Shown piece by piece: positions 7,863 through 23,749 of a stretch of DNA of 38,537 nt (within the stretch, counting starts at the first letter, position 1; every line of letters begins with the position of its first letter). This stretch comes from an uncultured Bacilli bacterium (GTDB lineage: Bacteria > Bacillota_I > Bacilli_A > RF39 > UBA660), in NCBI GenBank assembly GCA_944329375.1, contig CALVIB010000010.1, forward strand, positions 1 through 38,537, given 5' to 3'. The notes beneath the pieces were generated by a model that was not told where the DNA came from, did not search any database, and worked only from the letters and a program-made list of their open reading frames with translations. Both the position numbers and the translations under genes were made by a program.

Positions 7863-8309
7863 TTGAAAAAAATTATTGATAGTAAAGTTGCTTTAATTGA
7901 TAAAGAAGGTATTATTCATGTAATGGGAGATGCTAATGAGGCAGGTTCACACGCAGCTTATTTTATAGATTATATTAATAATTATTATTTTAATGTCGAT
8001 ACTAATAATTTAACTATTGGAAGTCCTAGGGACCGTTTTGGATATATATTAGGTAGATTTGGTAATGTTATATATTTTAATGATTTGGATTCTTGTATGA
8101 TGTATTTTCCAGATGAACTTACGGAAAAACAAATAAGTGTTTTGAATAGTTTAGATTTGGGTAATCAAAGAGTTGTTTTATTTTATAATTTACAAGATTT
8201 TGGTACGTTTGTCTGTTCTGAAACTATTGGATTAGAGGATGATGAACATATGAATATTCATGAAGTTATGAATGAATATTTAAGTCATGATTATAAATTT
8301 ACGAGGTGA
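7863..8309 (+). CDS. Paralog array protein 1, unknown function
   Basis: I do not recognise this 148-residue protein. It is the first of five tandem relatives. Shared features: an N-terminal strand ending near LIDKEGIIHVMG, then a helix with His (SHAAYFIDYI), a core block FGYILGRFGNVIYFND, then MMYFPDELTEKQISVLNSL, and a late strand VVLFYN. No signal peptide, membrane helix or metal motif, so it is probably a cytoplasmic alpha/beta protein. TTG start chosen for its AGGTGAT at ideal spacing. The stop overlaps the next gene as GTGA. Closest to paralog 2, with about half of the positions similar by eye. Confidence 0.8.
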   Translation: MKKIIDSKVALIDKEGIIHVMGDANEAGSHAAYFIDYINNYYFNVDTNNLTIGSPRDRFGYILGRFGNVIYFNDLDSCMMYFPDELTEKQISVLNSLDLGNQRVVLFYNLQDFGTFVCSETIGLEDDEHMNIHEVMNEYLSHDYKFTR

Positions 8310-8767
8310 TTTGTATAGAAAAAATTATTGATAGCAAGGTTTTAATTATTGATAAGATGGGTGTTATTCATGCTTTAGGCAGGGTTAATAATTCTAAATA
8401 TCATGTGAAACTTTTGTTAGATTATTTAAAAGGAAATTATCCTAGTTTGGATATTACAAAATTAAAGATTGGAAGTTCTAGAAATTATTATGGATATATA
8501 TTTGGAAGATTAGGTAATATTATATACTTTAATGATGTTAATATAAATGGTACAGGAATGTTTTATTTTCCAGATAATCTTACTGAAAAGCAAATTAATA
8601 CTTTAAATAATTTGGATTTGGGTAATATAAAGGTGGCTATTTGTTATAGTCCTTATAAGGTAAAAAATGGTATAGAATATAGGATGATAGGTTTAGATGG
8701 AGAGCATAGTTTGAAAGAGGCAATTGATGAGTTTATGTATAAAGAAAGTAGGATTCGAAGGAGGTAA
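8306..8767 (+). CDS. Paralog array protein 2, unknown function
   Basis: Same family as its neighbour, with matching blocks KIIDSKVLIIDKMGVIHALG, YHVKLLLDYLK, YGYIFGRLGNIIYFND and FYFPDNLTEKQINTLNNLDLGN. The start is unusual. GTG at 8306 overlaps the previous stop (GTGA) but has no ribosome site of its own. Aligned to paralog 1, the natural start position is an ATA codon at 8315, placed after AGGTGAT. I keep GTG and assume translational coupling. The C-terminus is basic (SRIRRR). Ends in TAATG overlap with the next gene. Confidence 0.78.
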   Translation: MICIEKIIDSKVLIIDKMGVIHALGRVNNSKYHVKLLLDYLKGNYPSLDITKLKIGSSRNYYGYIFGRLGNIIYFNDVNINGTGMFYFPDNLTEKQINTLNNLDLGNIKVAICYSPYKVKNGIEYRMIGLDGEHSLKEAIDEFMYKESRIRRR

Positions 8768-8772
8768 TGCAA

Positions 8773-9240
8773 GTGGAAAAGATGGACGACTATTGGATGG
8801 CTGTTATTAGTAGTGAGGATGATGGATTGATTCGTTTTTTTGGAAGAAAAGATGAAGAATATTTTTTGCATTTGGAAGTTTTAAAGGATTATTTATATAC
8901 TTATTATAATGATTTAGCAAAACAAATAGGAGCGGATGATTTACATACCAATGAGGAAATTATAATTTATTTAAATACTTTAGGAAATATTGTTTATTTG
9001 CATTCAGCTGGTTATGGATTGATATATATGCCTAAAGAGGTTAGTGATAAACAAATTGAATCACTATATCAATTACTTTCTTCATTTCCAAAAACACCTA
9101 TTTATATAGATTATAATTTAATGAGAAAAAATGGAAAAATTGTTCCTCAAGAGATAATAAATTCAGATGATAGTTTAAGAAATACACAACTTTTAGATAA
9201 GTTTTTGAATTTTAAATCATATACAAAGAAGGTAAAATAA
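8773..9240 (+). CDS. Paralog array protein 3, unknown function
   Basis: The most divergent member of the five-gene family. It keeps DDGLIRFFGR, a His-containing helix (FLHLEVLKDYL), YLNTLGNIVYLHS, GLIYMPKEVSDKQIESLYQL and the strand PIYIDYN. Start choice: an ATG at 8767 lies only two bases from GGAGG and overlaps the previous stop. GTG at 8773 has an eight-base spacing to the same GGAGG and matches the N-termini of paralogs 4 and 5 (DDYxA), so I prefer it (155 residues). No domain of known function is recognised. Confidence 0.78.
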   Translation: MEKMDDYWMAVISSEDDGLIRFFGRKDEEYFLHLEVLKDYLYTYYNDLAKQIGADDLHTNEEIIIYLNTLGNIVYLHSAGYGLIYMPKEVSDKQIESLYQLLSSFPKTPIYIDYNLMRKNGKIVPQEIINSDDSLRNTQLLDKFLNFKSYTKKVK

Positions 9241-9719
9241 TGGATGATTATATGGCATCTATTATAAATGGTGGTAAAGAAGATGGAAAAATTACTTATT
9301 TAGGTTATAAATTTAATTTTAAGTATCATGCTCAGTGTTTGATTGATTATGCTTCTAAGAAATATCCTAATATTTCAGGTTTTAGTAAACTTGATTATAT
9401 GAAAGAACCTAATAGTCCTATATATTATTTAACTTTATTAGGGAATATTGTATTTACTAATATATCAGTTGATGGAGAGAAACGAGGAATGTTATATTTT
9501 CCTAAAAAAATTTCTGATGAACAAGTAAAAGTGCTATATCAATTTATTAAGACAATAAATTTTTATGATGTTTGGATAGTTTATCATATGACCATGGTGG
9601 ATGGAATGGTTGTTGGGGAAAGTTTTGATGTAAGTAAGAATTTTTCTTTGGAAAAACAAATAGATAATTTTATCTTTGAGAAGATGAACAAAGAGGTTGG
9701 ATATGGAAAAAAATATTGA
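9240..9719 (+). CDS. Paralog array protein 4, unknown function
   Basis: A 159-residue member of the array, starting MDDYMASIINGG. Conserved blocks: GKITYLGYKFNFKYHAQCL, LIDYASKKYP, PIYYLTLLGNIVFTN, GMLYFPKKISDEQVKVLYQF, a strand with VYHM, then DGMVVGESFD and FSLEKQIDNF. TAATG overlap with the gene before it, and its 3' end overlaps the fifth gene by 17 bases. Closest to paralog 5. Function unknown; no signal peptide or transmembrane segment. Confidence 0.8.
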   Translation: MDDYMASIINGGKEDGKITYLGYKFNFKYHAQCLIDYASKKYPNISGFSKLDYMKEPNSPIYYLTLLGNIVFTNISVDGEKRGMLYFPKKISDEQVKVLYQFIKTINFYDVWIVYHMTMVDGMVVGESFDVSKNFSLEKQIDNFIFEKMNKEVGYGKKY

Positions 9720-10221
9720 TGATTATAAAGCGATAATTATTAATGGTGTAAATGATAAAGGAGACATTGATGGTAATATTGATTTTATTGGTAATATAGA
9801 TGATTATGATTTTCATGTGGATTGTTTAATTGATTATGGAATTGAAAAATATCCAGATTCTCAAATTTTTAAAGTAATTCCAAATAATTGTGAGCCTAAT
9901 GTACCTGTATATTTTTTATGTATGTTTAATAATGTGGTTTATTTAAATGTTTCTAGTAGTAGATATGGTAAAAGAGGAATTTTATTTTTACCAGATGAAA
10001 TAAGTGATAAACAGAAATTAGCTTTGGAAAAGATTTCGGAATTATTAGCAAATATAAATGTAGATATTGTTTATAATATGAGATTTGATGATGGTCTTGT
10101 TTATACTGAAGAATTTGACAGTAAAAGAGGTTTTTCATTTAAAGAAGTACTAGATGATTTTTATAATATGGTTTATCAGGATTCTAGTAAAGCAGATAAT
10201 GAAAAAAAGCCTAGAAATTAG
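9703..10221 (+). CDS. Paralog array protein 5, unknown function
   Basis: Last and longest member (172 residues). It begins MEKNIDDYKAIIING and has a small insertion, DKGDIDGNID, before the conserved FIGNIDDYDFHVDCLIDYG. It keeps PVYFLCMFNNVVYLN, GILFLPDEISDKQKLALEKI, VDIVYNM and FSFKEVLDDF. A TTG at 9697 is in frame, but ATG 9703 sits six bases after AGAGG and aligns with paralog 4, so it is the likely start. A charged tail (SKADNEKKPRN) follows. The stop overlaps the stop of the convergent peptidase gene. Confidence 0.8.
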   Translation: MEKNIDDYKAIIINGVNDKGDIDGNIDFIGNIDDYDFHVDCLIDYGIEKYPDSQIFKVIPNNCEPNVPVYFLCMFNNVVYLNVSSSRYGKRGILFLPDEISDKQKLALEKISELLANINVDIVYNMRFDDGLVYTEEFDSKRGFSFKEVLDDFYNMVYQDSSKADNEKKPRN

Positions 10222-17200: not shown

Positions 17201-17227
17201 TTAGCACTCATATATTGACAGTGCCAG
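17201..17227 (+). promoter_or_regulatory. CIRCE operator 1 (HrcA site)
   Basis: Perfect left arm TTAGCACTC (17201-17209), nine-base spacer, degenerate right arm CAGTGCCAG (17219-17227, six of nine matches to GAGTGCTAA). It covers the -35 box of the hrcA promoter. Confidence 0.8.
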
Positions 17228-17246: not shown

Positions 17247-17273
17247 GTAGCAATCCAGTAAAAAGAGTGCTAA
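17247..17273 (+). promoter_or_regulatory. CIRCE operator 2 (HrcA site)
   Basis: Left arm GTAGCAATC (17247-17255, seven of nine matches), nine-base spacer, perfect right arm GAGTGCTAA (17265-17273). It lies at and just after the predicted transcription start, so HrcA bound here would block initiation or clearance. Confidence 0.8.
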
Positions 17274-17286
17274 AAGAGGTGATGAG

Positions 17287-18276
17287 ATGCTTACAAAAAG
17301 GCAGGAAGAACTTTTAAAATTAATTGTTGAGAATTATATTAAAACAGCAACTCCAGTTAGTTCGAAGGCTTTATGTAAAAAGATGAAGTGTTCGAGTGCG
17401 ACTATTAGAAATGAAATGGCTGCTTTGGAAGGTTTCTCACTTCTACAAAAAACGCACATTTCATCTGGTAGAATTCCTAGTGATAAGGGATACAGATATT
17501 ATGTAGATAATATTATGGTTCCGAAGGAGTTAAATGGTGAAGATATGTTAAAGCTGAAACAGATATTTTCAAATAATGCATTAGTACTTTCTGATGCGAT
17601 TACGAAAAGTATGGAAATTGTTTCAGAGCTTACGCATTACACAGCGGTAGTTTTAGGTCATTCTTCTAGTGATAATAAAATTGCCAAAGTTGAGGTAGTG
17701 CCAATTGATGATAATAAAATGATTGCTATTGTTATCACTGATAAAGGACATGTGGAAAACCGTAATGTAATTATTGAGGGTAATGTCAGTAAAGCTGAGG
17801 TTAAGCAAACTACTGATATAATTAGTAAGTTAATTGTGGGAGTTCCTTTAAGTGAGGTTAGTCAGGTTTTGGAATTTGAGGTTAAACCGATTATTACAAG
17901 ATATGTGAAAGAACATGATGCTTTATATAATGCTTTTTATAATGCGTTTAGTGATTTTGCAAGTAAACCACATATTAGAATGAGTGGAACAAATAATTTA
18001 CTTATGGAACCTGAATTTGATGATGCTAGTAAGATAAGAAGTTTACTTAATAAGTTTGAGGATAAGGAACTTATTAAGAGTATTAAAGCTGATGATGATG
18101 AAATTAAGGTTTATATTGGTAGTGAAAATAGTATTGATGATGATGTATCAATTATTAAGACTAGCTTTTACAAAGATGGCACGGAAGGAACAATTGCTTT
18201 GATTGGTCCAAAAAGGATGGAATATGGCCGGGCTGAAGCATTACTTAATTACATTAAAGAAAATATAGGTAGGTGA
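17287..18276 (+). CDS. hrcA: Heat-inducible transcription repressor HrcA
   Basis: Represses class I heat-shock operons by binding CIRCE; GroEL keeps it active in known systems. Seen: N-terminal winged helix (LTKRQEELLKLIVENYIKTA, then SSKALCKKMKCSSATIRNEM), the conserved KTHISSGRIPSDKGYRYYVD block, and C-terminal GPKRMEYGRAEALLNYI. 329 residues is typical. ATG at 17287 with GAGGTGAT upstream. First gene of hrcA-grpE-dnaK and clearly autoregulated through two CIRCE sites. No anomaly in the coding sequence. Confidence 0.96.
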   Translation: MLTKRQEELLKLIVENYIKTATPVSSKALCKKMKCSSATIRNEMAALEGFSLLQKTHISSGRIPSDKGYRYYVDNIMVPKELNGEDMLKLKQIFSNNALVLSDAITKSMEIVSELTHYTAVVLGHSSSDNKIAKVEVVPIDDNKMIAIVITDKGHVENRNVIIEGNVSKAEVKQTTDIISKLIVGVPLSEVSQVLEFEVKPIITRYVKEHDALYNAFYNAFSDFASKPHIRMSGTNNLLMEPEFDDASKIRSLLNKFEDKELIKSIKADDDEIKVYIGSENSIDDDVSIIKTSFYKDGTEGTIALIGPKRMEYGRAEALLNYIKENIGR

Positions 18277-18283
18277 TTAATAA

Positions 18284-18919
18284 GTGGATAAAGAAAAAAA
18301 ATATGAAAAGCATGAAGATAAACATGAAAAGCATTATGATAAACATAAGCATCATGATAAGCATGATAAAAAATGTGATTGTCATGATAAAGAGTGCAAA
18401 TGTCATGAAAAGCATGAGAAATGTGATTGCCATGATAAACACGAAAAATGTGAATGTCATGATGATAAGAAGTTAGAAGAAGCTAATAAAAAAATAAAAG
18501 AATTAGAAGAAGAGGTATTAAAGGCAAAGGCTGACAATATTAACTATAGAAAAAGAAAAGATGAAGAAGTTAGTAAGATGTTAGAGTTTGCGAATGAAGA
18601 TATTGTGAAAGATATTTTACCTTCAATCGATAATTTTGAAAGAGCAATTAATTTAGATGATGATAATTTAGATGATGAGCTTTCAAAATTCTTGGCAGGT
18701 TTTAAAATGATTTATTGTCATTTGGTAGAGGTTTTAGAAAAATATGATGTTAAAGCTATCGATGACAAAGGTAAAGCATTTGATCCTAAACTTCATCAAG
18801 CTGTACTTACTGAGAAAGTGGAAGGCGTAGAAAGTGGTATGGTAGTTGAAGTTATGCAGAAGGGTTATATGCTTAAAGATAAGGTTATTAGACCAGCTAT
18901 GGTCAAAGTTAGTGAATAA
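18284..18919 (+). CDS. grpE: Nucleotide exchange factor GrpE with a His/Cys-rich N-terminal extension
   Basis: Exchange factor that releases ADP from DnaK. Residues about 64-211 are normal GrpE: long coiled coil (LEEANKKIKELEEEVLKAK, DNINYRKRKDEEV), DILPSIDNFERAI, and the beta-domain FDPKLHQAVLTEKVEG, VVEVMQKGYMLKDKVIRPAMV. Residues 7-63 are unusual: 13 His and 8 Cys among Lys, Asp and Glu, with four CxCH motifs at 31-34, 38-41, 47-50 and 56-59, after an all-His stretch (10-27). This looks like a metal-binding tail; that is inference. GTG start with AGGTGAT at ideal distance, overlapping the hrcA end, so the tail is inside the normal reading frame rather than upstream readthrough. Confidence 0.93.
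   Translation: MDKEKKYEKHEDKHEKHYDKHKHHDKHDKKCDCHDKECKCHEKHEKCDCHDKHEKCECHDDKKLEEANKKIKELEEEVLKAKADNINYRKRKDEEVSKMLEFANEDIVKDILPSIDNFERAINLDDDNLDDELSKFLAGFKMIYCHLVEVLEKYDVKAIDDKGKAFDPKLHQAVLTEKVEGVESGMVVEVMQKGYMLKDKVIRPAMVKVSE
18297..18472 (+). repeat. Low-complexity coding repeat in the grpE 5' end
   Basis: Degenerate tandem units around CATGATAAA and CATGAAAAG encode the His/Lys/Asp stretch, then TGTGATTGTCATGATAAA-type units encode CDCHDK and variants. The pattern suggests growth by tandem duplication. Confidence 0.6.
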
Positions 18920-18931
18920 AGAAAGGAATGA

Positions 18932-20763
<1,832 letters not shown>

Positions 20764-20764
<1 letters not shown>

Positions 20765-20795
20765 AAGTTCTAGGAGACTAGAACTTTCTCTTTAT
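20764..20795 (+). terminator. Terminator or attenuator after dnaK
   Basis: AAGTTCTAG (20765-20773), GAGA loop, CTAGAACTT (20778-20786), then a broken T tract (TCTCTTT). Strong stem but weak tail, so partial readthrough into pepF-dnaJ is likely. Confidence 0.6.
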
Positions 20796-20808
20796 GAAAG
20801 GAAATGTT

Positions 20809-22611
20809 ATGACTATAAAAGATAAAACTAGGGATGAGATTGATGATAAGTATAAGTGGGATTTAAGTCAGATTTATAAAACTGAAGATGAATGGCTTAA
20901 AGACTTTGAATATGTTAAAGCAAGTGGTGATAAGTATTTAGAATTTAAGGGCAAGCTTAATAATGCAGATAATATATTAAATTATTTTAAGTTTGATGAA
21001 GAGTTTTCTAAAAAAGCTGATAGTTTATATATGTATGCAGCTTTAAAGTTTGATGAGGATACTAGTAATAGTAAGTATCAAGAGCTTAAAGGAAAGATTG
21101 AAAAAGTGCTTACAGATTTATCAGCTAAGACTTCATTTGTCATTCCTGAGATGCTTAAGCTTTCAAAAGAAGATTTTGAGAGATTTATGGAAGAGGCTTC
21201 TGAACTTAAGATGTATGACTATGAATTTAAAAATATTCTTAGAATGAAAGACCATATTTTATCTGATAAGGAAGAAGAATTACTGGCTAGTTTAAGTAAG
21301 AGTTTGAATAACAGTGAAGATACGGCTAGTTATTTAAGAAATTCGGATATGAAGTTTGGAATTATTAAAGATAGTTTAGGTAATGATGTGGAGCTTTCTA
21401 ATACTAATTTTTCTAAATATATTATGGATAATGACCGTGAGGTTAGAAAGAGTGCTTTTTATACTTTATATAAGGAGTATGAAAATTTACAAAATACTTT
21501 TGCCTCTAGTTATAGTGGCAAGGTAAATACTGATAATGTGCTTGCTTTAAGGCGCGGGTTTAAGGATGCGCGAGATGCGGCTTTATTTGGAAGTAATATA
21601 GATAGTAAGGTTTATGACAATTTGATTCATGTTTTGCACGATAATTTATCTATTATGGATGATTATTATGCTTTAAAAAAAGAGGTTATGGGATTAGATG
21701 AAGTGCATATTTATGATATTTATAGTAGTTTAGTTCCAGAGTCTAGTCAAAGTTATACTTTTGAAGAGGCTAAGAAAATTGTTTTGGATGCTTTATCTAT
21801 TTTAGGTGATAATTATATTACCGATTTAAATAAGGCTTTTGATGAAAAATGGATAGATGTTATGCCAAGTAAAGGTAAAAAAGGTGGGGCATATTCATGG
21901 GGAAGTTATACGACTAATCCATATTTACTTTTGAATTTTAATGGTAAGTATGATGATGTTTCTACTTTGGCTCATGAGCTTGGTCATTCGATGCATTCAT
22001 ATTATTCTAATAAAAATAACCCTTATATATATCATCAGTATAAGATATTTGTGGCTGAGGTTGCTTCACAGGTTAATGAGTTAATTTTGGCTAGATATTT
22101 GATTAACCATACTTCTGATAAAAGTGAGAAGTTAGCTATATTAGACAGTTTGATGGAGCTATTTAAAGGTTCGATTGTAAGACAGACAATGTTTGCTGAA
22201 TTTGAATATTTAACGCATAAGAAGGAATCAGAAGGAACTGTTTTGACTAGTGAGTTTTTATCTAATGAATATTATAAGTTATATGAAAAATATTCTGGTC
22301 ATAATATGATTAGTGATAAAGAGATTAGATATGAATGGGAAAAGATTCCACATTTCTATTATGACTTTTATGTGTATCAATATGCGACAGGGTTAGCGGC
22401 AGCTAATTATATAGCAGAAAATATTATGAAAGGTGATAAAGTGGCTTTGAATAATTATTTGAAGTTTTTAACTTTAGGTGGTAGTCAGGATCCAATAGAT
22501 GAGCTTAAGGTAGCTGGTGTTGATATGAATAGTCCTAAGGTTATAGAGCAGGCACTTGATACATTTAGAGGTTTAATTGATGAGTTTAAAAATATTTACC
22601 GAAGTAGGTGA
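20809..22611 (+). CDS. pepF: Oligoendopeptidase F (M3 family)
   Basis: Cytoplasmic zinc metallopeptidase that cuts peptides of roughly 7-20 residues. Seen: zinc site HELGH at 389-393 with third ligand Glu417 (FVAEVASQ), N-terminal PepF domain (YKWDLSQIYKTEDEW), and C-terminal YYDFYVYQYATGLAAANYIAE. ATG 20794 is in frame, but 20809 has AAAGGA six bases upstream and gives a normal N-terminus (600 residues). It sits between dnaK and dnaJ, four bases before dnaJ, so it is co-transcribed with that chaperone gene. This position is unusual. Confidence 0.94.
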   Translation: MTIKDKTRDEIDDKYKWDLSQIYKTEDEWLKDFEYVKASGDKYLEFKGKLNNADNILNYFKFDEEFSKKADSLYMYAALKFDEDTSNSKYQELKGKIEKVLTDLSAKTSFVIPEMLKLSKEDFERFMEEASELKMYDYEFKNILRMKDHILSDKEEELLASLSKSLNNSEDTASYLRNSDMKFGIIKDSLGNDVELSNTNFSKYIMDNDREVRKSAFYTLYKEYENLQNTFASSYSGKVNTDNVLALRRGFKDARDAALFGSNIDSKVYDNLIHVLHDNLSIMDDYYALKKEVMGLDEVHIYDIYSSLVPESSQSYTFEEAKKIVLDALSILGDNYITDLNKAFDEKWIDVMPSKGKKGGAYSWGSYTTNPYLLLNFNGKYDDVSTLAHELGHSMHSYYSNKNNPYIYHQYKIFVAEVASQVNELILARYLINHTSDKSEKLAILDSLMELFKGSIVRQTMFAEFEYLTHKKESEGTVLTSEFLSNEYYKLYEKYSGHNMISDKEIRYEWEKIPHFYYDFYVYQYATGLAAANYIAENIMKGDKVALNNYLKFLTLGGSQDPIDELKVAGVDMNSPKVIEQALDTFRGLIDEFKNIYRSR

Positions 22612-22615
22612 TTAG

Positions 22616-23749
22616 ATGAATAAAAGAGATTATTATGAAGTATTAGGCGTTTCTAAAGATGCGAGTGAAGCTGAGATAAAAAGTGCTTTTAGGAAGTTAG
22701 CTAAGAAATACCATCCAGATGTTTCTAAGGAGCCAGATGCGGCTGAGAAGTTTAAAGAAGCGCAGGAAGCTTATGCTGTTTTATCTGATGAAAATAAAAG
22801 AAGACAGTATGACCAGTTTGGGCATGCGGCCTTTAGTGGAGGCGCTGGAGGTGCTGGCGGCAGTTATGGTGGCTTTTCAGGCTTTGATTTTGGTGATATA
22901 AATTTAGATGATATTTTTGATATGTTTGGTGGTGGCTTTTCTTCAGGCTTTGGTTCTTTTGGTGGAAGAAGTTCTAGAGGAAGTAGAAAACAAAAAGGAC
23001 CAGATAGAGTTATTCAAATTGATTTAGATTTTGAAGAGGCTGCATTTGGATGTAAGAAAACGATTAATTTAACTTTGAATGAGAAATGTGATGACTGTGG
23101 TGGGGCTGGTGGACATGGCTCTAAGACTTGTGATAAATGTCATGGCTCTGGTACGATTACTGGTCAGCAACAAACTTTATTTGGTTCATTTATGACAAGA
23201 ACAACTTGTGATAAATGTGGTGGAAGTGGAACTATATTTGAAAACACTTGTAAAACTTGCCGTGGAACAGGCAGGGTTAAGAAAAATAAAGATATTGAGG
23301 TTACGATTCCAGCTGGTGTAGATACTGGGAATCAACTTAGAATTTCTGGTAAAGGGGAAGCTGGAGTTAATGGTGGACCTAATGGCGATATTTATTTAGA
23401 GTTTTATGTTAGAAAACATCCAATATTTGAAAGAGAAGATAATGACATTTATTTAGATATGCCAGTTACGATTACGGATGCGGTACTTGGAGGTAAGATA
23501 GAAGTTCCGACTTTATATGGTACAGTTAAGGTTAGTGTGCCAGCAGGTTCTTCAAGTGGAGATAAACTAAGACTTAAAGGTAAGGGTGTATCTGATGTGA
23601 ATAATGGCCGTAAAGGTGATATGTATATTATTTTAAATGTTATTACACCTAAAAAATTATCAAGAGACCAAAAGAAATTATTTGAATCTTTAGCTAAAAC
23701 TGATTTAGATGATTCTAAAGAGTTTGATAAAATTAAGAAATATTTGTAA
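22616..23749 (+). CDS. dnaJ: Chaperone DnaJ (Hsp40)
   Basis: Type I J-domain co-chaperone that stimulates DnaK ATPase and delivers clients. Seen: J domain with HPD at 33-35, Gly/Phe region (about 75-125, rich in GGA, GGF, GSF), four zinc-binding CxxCxGxG repeats ([32 protein letters not shown]), and C-terminal substrate domains ([20 protein letters not shown]). 377 residues, complete. ATG with AGGTGAT overlapping the pepF end. Ends with its own terminator. Confidence 0.97.

Follow-up and report, generated by a model that had tools for sequence, protein, structure and literature searches.

The heat-shock cluster and its grpE gene

We analyzed a 38,537-nucleotide stretch of DNA (the window) from the genome of an uncultured gut Bacilli bacterium (1.19 Mb, 81% complete). 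The window contains an hrcA-grpE-dnaK-dnaJ cluster on its forward strand, with pepF between dnaK and dnaJ. The heat-shock repressor gene hrcA (17287-18276; PF01628, E 8e-49) is preceded by two CIRCE-like sites on the same strand, one at 17201-17227 (3 mismatches; 0.03 expected per window) and one at 17247-17273 (2 mismatches). It is followed by grpE (18284-18919), dnaK (18938-20764; PF00012), the gene for a PepF-like oligopeptidase (20794-22611) and dnaJ (22616-23749; PF00226, PF00684 and PF01556). The translated DnaK has no His/Cys tail, and DnaJ has its usual CXXCXGXG zinc domain and no extra tail. We found no metal gene linked to grpE within the window. Elsewhere, at 7863-10221, there is a tandem of five similar-looking small open reading frames (148-174 aa).

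The grpE gene encodes a protein of 211 aa that begins with GTG. A good ribosome site, AGGTGA (18271-18276, forward strand), lies 7 nt before the GTG, as the first-pass annotation had noted; it overlaps the hrcA stop codon and is conserved in relatives. Pfam PF01025 covers residues 60-211 (E 3e-47), and the frame of the region before it is continuous with GrpE, in line with that annotation's reading of a tail joined to a complete GrpE. The best match in the PDB was 4ani, the GrpE of G. kaustophilus (residues 63-211, E 3.5e-34); the protein also matches 1dkg by sequence. AlphaFold2 places helices at residues 57-101, 105-124 and 131-153, followed by strands, giving the helix, bundle and C-terminal beta domain of GrpE. 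This is the sole GrpE found in its genome. It looks like a working GrpE, with a putative function in DnaK nucleotide exchange.

The unusual part of the protein is its N-terminal tail of 64 residues, which projects from the long first helix of the core (residues 57-101, 18452-18586 by AlphaFold2 and DSSP). Recounting gave the numbers first reported: residues 7-63 (18302-18472) contain 13 His, 8 Cys and four CxCH motifs (CDCH, CKCH, CDCH and CECH). A His-rich half (residues 10-28) comes first and the four CxCH units follow. The DNA of the tail was said to be built from short tandem units, and Tandem Repeats Finder identified imperfect units of 21, 27 and 48 bp at 18299-18463. Since pLDDT was below 50 for residues 1-4 and 8-56, the tail is predicted to be disordered on a GrpE core of normal predicted fold. 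No Ile, Leu, Val, Met or Phe follows Met1 in the tail, so that it lacks a hydrophobic DnaK-binding motif of the E. coli IIM type; such a motif does not define the GrpE family, and many plain tails in the same GTDB family are also without a hydrophobic pair.

We found that the tail is neither a chance composition nor an artefact of the reading frame. Compared with the protein background of the window, the probability of at least 13 His was 6e-12 and that of at least 8 Cys was 2e-7. Among 35 other open reading frames in the window, the best 57-aa stretch was in DnaJ, with 9 His plus Cys. Together with the selection test described below, this composition test rules out both explanations. Initiation after residue 63, raised earlier as a way in which the tail might be bypassed, is also ruled out: beyond the GTG, the first in-frame ATG, GTG or TTG is codon 98, which lies within the core. 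Because initiation there would destroy the core, the tail is obligatory for this GrpE.

GrpE tails in the genus and the family

The first-pass annotation had proposed looking for a His/Cys stretch at the N-terminus of GrpE in related genomes, and had held that its absence there would weigh against a functional tail. In nine species of the genus, from separately assembled genomes, GrpE carries a homologous tail, in which CxC number 2-5 and His 10-15. A His-only GrpE tail (13-14 His, no Cys) is present in three further species, and the remaining ones have one CxC in the corresponding position or a plain Lys/Glu tail. Many relatives do lack the tail: at least 18 of the 30 readable species have no strong GrpE tail, so the tail is not essential in the genus. 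The GrpE of another member of the genus (L002) is the same as that on the contig L041, which bears the name Candidatus Coprosoma intestinipullorum.

CxCH units have been gained and lost by tandem duplication within the genus. An example is the GrpE L011, whose core is 99.3% identical to that in the window and whose tail is nevertheless 10 residues longer, with one more CxC unit. The tail had been suggested to be recent and variable, and judged by these comparisons it is both.

We found that the metal-ligand composition of the tail is maintained. Nearly all tail codons are two-fold degenerate, and a third-position transversion changes Asp to Glu, His to Gln, Lys to Asn, or Cys to Trp or a stop. 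Across the nine tails, 9 of the 28 Asp/Glu columns vary in this way, against none of the 19 His/Gln and none of the 28 Lys/Asn columns (0/47 taken together; Fisher 5e-5, an exact value not to be pressed because the tails share ancestry and the repeats make the alignment uncertain). The tails of the genus contain 115 His and no Gln, 162 Lys and 1 Asn, and 59 Cys and no Trp. For comparison, the GrpE cores contain 18 His and 18 Gln, and 187 Lys and 59 Asn. We conclude that the His, Cys and Lys residues are kept by selection, and that only Asp and Glu drift. Along with the position of the next start codon, these counts support a tail that is translated and whose composition is under selection.

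We extended the comparison to 131 GrpEs, about one per genus, from the GTDB family of the window. GrpE tails with at least 4 Cys or at least 8 His were found in 49 of the 131, compared to 1 of 40 outside the family (p 3e-6); 47 of the 131 contain at least one CxC. The most extreme have 25 Cys and 12 CxC (L098), 23 Cys and 13 CxC (L110), or 24 His and no Cys (L129). About two thirds of the sampled GrpEs have no Cys- or His-rich tail. GrpE N-termini had been described as normally short and acidic, which holds only loosely here, as the plain tails of the family are about 32 aa long and rich in both Lys and Glu. The one qualifying GrpE outside the family (L394, same class) has a different repeat, KCCSDESECCSDDS..., with 12 Cys as CC pairs, and its tail is apparently independent of those in the family.

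The spacing of Cys in the tails is not random. In 48 Cys-containing tails we counted 166 CxC, compared to 74 in shuffled sequences (z 12.8); CC and CxxC were depleted. By this pattern, the spacing is of the metallothionein type, and not of the knuckle type of DnaJ or rubredoxin. Hydrophobic pairs were rarer in His/Cys-rich tails (7/34) than in plain tails of the family (41/77; p 0.002). When we mapped the trait on a GrpE core tree, parsimony counted about 30 changes. This tree is built from short cores and has weak resolution; its well-supported branches force at least 10 changes. On this reconstruction, the tail has been gained and lost repeatedly in the family.

Similar tails on other proteins

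We found similar tails on proteins that have no part in the DnaK system, using the pattern CxCx3CxCx3CxC and a profile built from the modules as queries. The most frequent host was histidyl-tRNA synthetase (HisRS). Of the 71 enzymes read, 43 or more have CxC in the C-terminal tail, and the richest tail has 29 Cys. Selection for long frames had brought in many of the 71, so that a fair lower bound is 43 among all 107 genomes that gave a HisRS match. CxC-rich HisRS ends include L263, L290, L254, L264, L252, L270 and L281, and L263 and L322 reach 29 Cys and 12 His. A Cys/His C-terminal tail was also present on a single-cluster ferredoxin in four genomes and on DeoC in one, and a CxC linker joins NrdD and glutaredoxin in one. 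The latter protein (L300, genome G100), assigned by eye, has an NrdD-like N-terminal part, the linker CTCGPDCSC and a glutaredoxin-like end, and is apparently an NrdD-CxC-glutaredoxin fusion.

The HisRS in the window's own genome ends in GDEDED, which rules out a tail shared between GrpE and HisRS there. Across genomes, we found no association between tails on GrpE and tails on HisRS (Fisher 0.80, rho -0.09) such as a complementary distribution would produce. One genome (G056; 6 contigs, 94% complete) has no GrpE match and yet has a HisRS with a long CxC tail (L317).

Six genomes encode free metallothionein-like proteins of 45-60 aa (L282, L283, L287, L288, L293 and L297), e.g., MEKKKCNCGPDCTCGCQEGKECTC..., that belong to no Pfam or NCBIfam family. 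Next to L287, and likewise next to L301, there is a similar protein, also small at about 90 aa. A module, C.CGC..G..C.C, in which positions other than Cys also match, is shared by every one of the six free proteins and by five GrpEs, two HisRSs and two ferredoxins, a total of 15 compared to 0.4 expected with the Cys positions kept. This recurrence across hosts suggests exchange between genes or strong convergence. A hidden Markov model of the modules matched 17 of 141 genomes of the family, but not one of the roughly 370 further genomes sampled from the phylum. The tail in the window is without this module and may have an origin independent of the tails that bear it.

In having Cys-rich sequence with CxC arrays, the tails resemble metallothioneins: the window tail has 8 Cys and four CxC(H), and tails in the family have up to 25 Cys and 13 CxC. 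The window tail matches no metallothionein model in Pfam or NCBIfam. None of these models reaches its cut-off with the free proteins either; Metallothio_5 of Pfam scored 14.4 bits with one of them, below the cut-off of 25. By sequence, the free proteins look to be of the same kind as SmtA/BmtA and MymT, bacterial metallothioneins that are small Cys-rich metal-thiolate proteins (PMC7558416). They differ from these in the lack of a model match, and most modules in the family are fused to housekeeping proteins.

Candidate functions of the tail

Disordered His/Cys-rich extensions on folded proteins are known from SlyD and HypB. The GrpE in the window has the same arrangement, but SlyD and HypB belong to other protein families and are tied to hydrogenase maturation; a nickel role is described for SlyD (PMC3856676). 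The GroES-type HspA of H. pylori is, like the window GrpE, a housekeeping co-chaperone with an appended His/Cys-rich tail, which in HspA binds nickel and affects nickel content, storage and tolerance (PMC3856676). HspA differs in its fold, in the C-terminal position of its tail, in its nickel and hydrogenase context and in coming from a single unrelated lineage, so the likeness would be a functional analogy only. The tail of mycobacterial GroEL1, with His among Asp and Lys, binds Cu(II) (PMC10170517). That tail has His only and is at the C-terminus of a chaperonin paralogue, whereas the tail in the window has CxCH units and is at the N-terminus of the sole GrpE found. Such tails on chaperones have so far been known singly, as in HspA, GroEL1 and SlyD, and a literature search on GrpE with metal binding or metallothionein returned nothing on a tail of this kind. 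Here they appear repeatedly, on GrpE as well as on housekeeping proteins unrelated to it, in one uncultured gut family, beside free metallothionein-like proteins.

We think it probable that the GrpE tail buffers metal in the manner of a metallothionein, with an abundant protein as its carrier. The disordered N-terminus would have become an array of metal ligands, with a His-rich stretch and four CxCH units per chain and two chains per dimer. Its CxC thiolates and its His residues would chelate a thiophilic metal (Cu(I), Zn or Cd), which would be buffered or stored in the cytosol. GrpE would serve as an abundant, heat-inducible and solubilizing carrier, and not as a metal-controlled switch of DnaK. 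Tandem duplication of short DNA units would quickly add or remove sites. Because the same kind of tail occurs on other hosts and about two thirds of the sampled GrpEs of the family are without it, the recurrent property is metal-ligand clustering and not chaperone regulation. The spread of such tails over GrpE, other hosts and free proteins suggests a lineage in which ordinary housekeeping proteins have been fitted with tails that bind metal.

The first-pass annotation had inferred a metal-binding tail, which is probably right, and had offered, besides metal storage, two functions within the DnaK system: a link between DnaK cycling and metal or redox stress, and delivery of metal to DnaJ, which needs zinc. 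A tail specific to that system is ruled out by its occurrence on HisRS, ferredoxin, DeoC, NrdD-glutaredoxin and free proteins, and both functions are less likely because the tails recur on proteins with nothing in common but being plentiful in the cytosol. A co-chaperone gated by metal or redox state, in which metal or a disulfide in the tail alters the action of GrpE on DnaK, is nonetheless the least improbable of the alternatives, though unlikely. In E. coli and M. tuberculosis, the disordered N-terminus of GrpE competes at the substrate-binding domain of DnaK and so helps to free the substrate, an action that metal could switch here. The position of the tail fits such a role. In the E. coli protein, the contact with the substrate site of DnaK is made by 17-IIM-19 of the tail (PMC12915176), and in M. 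tuberculosis, removal of 42 N-terminal residues of GrpE blocked substrate release (PMC10803776). The His/Cys-rich tails are poor in hydrophobic pairs and therefore probably act differently on DnaK, which calls into question the generality of a hydrophobic N-terminal motif for substrate release. However, none of the other hosts has a role with DnaK, the tails are gained and lost between close species, and we saw no counterpart change in DnaK or DnaJ. Even if the tail is a metal buffer, it may affect DnaK. A metallochaperone that supplies DnaJ with zinc, or a DnaK-bound client enzyme with some other metal, seems distinctly improbable to us. A dnaJ with a zinc domain does lie in the same cluster, and HspA offers a precedent in serving hydrogenase maturation (PMC3856676). 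But DnaJ is universal and the tail is absent from most sampled GrpEs of the family, and we identified no nickel enzyme or specific client.

The two remaining alternatives give metal no role. Slippage of AT-rich repeats could have produced a charged, soluble and largely neutral low-complexity tail with His and Cys as by-products. The tandem units in the DNA, the different tail lengths on near-identical cores and the many relatives without a tail would fit such an expansion. It is already disfavored, and we consider it improbable: it leaves unexplained why third positions drift at Asp/Glu only while Gln is absent and Asn nearly so, why CxC is enriched and CC and CxxC depleted across unrelated tails, and why the feature recurs on several unrelated proteins. 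Least probable of all, and by our estimate very much so, is a tail that acts on nucleic acids, at surfaces or in phase separation, in which what counts is the charge of Lys, His and Asp and not metal. The high charge of the tail would fit, as would the conservation of Lys, which equals that of His, but the CxC arrays and the free Cys-rich proteins would be left unexplained.

A broader form of the metal-buffer interpretation is possible, though we hold it with less confidence than the buffer itself. A mobile metallothionein module, both free and repeatedly grafted onto the ends of GrpE, HisRS, ferredoxin, DeoC and NrdD-glutaredoxin, might form a distributed buffer that replaces CopZ/CopA in some genomes. 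If the tails do bind metal, small genomes would have a new means of buffering it, and the tails would offer a natural series in which to follow the evolution of a metal site on a disordered terminus.

A link to copper is only a lead. HMA-domain proteins, which we take to represent the CopZ/CopA system, were rarer in family genomes with the strongest modules (3/24) than in the others (68/117; p 4e-5, with cut-offs partly chosen after looking). Tree-based pairs pointed in the same direction without significance, and GrpE tails with at least 8 His plus Cys, taken alone, showed no link to HMA. We found no HMA match in the window's genome, at its 81% completeness. A pre-stated test in the genus, in which an inverse link with copper ATPases was expected, failed: HMA proteins were present in 6/12 species with a tail and in 6/18 without one. 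In a post hoc comparison within the genus, all four tails with at least four CxC came from species lacking HMA proteins, whereas six of the eight other tailed species have them (p 0.06).
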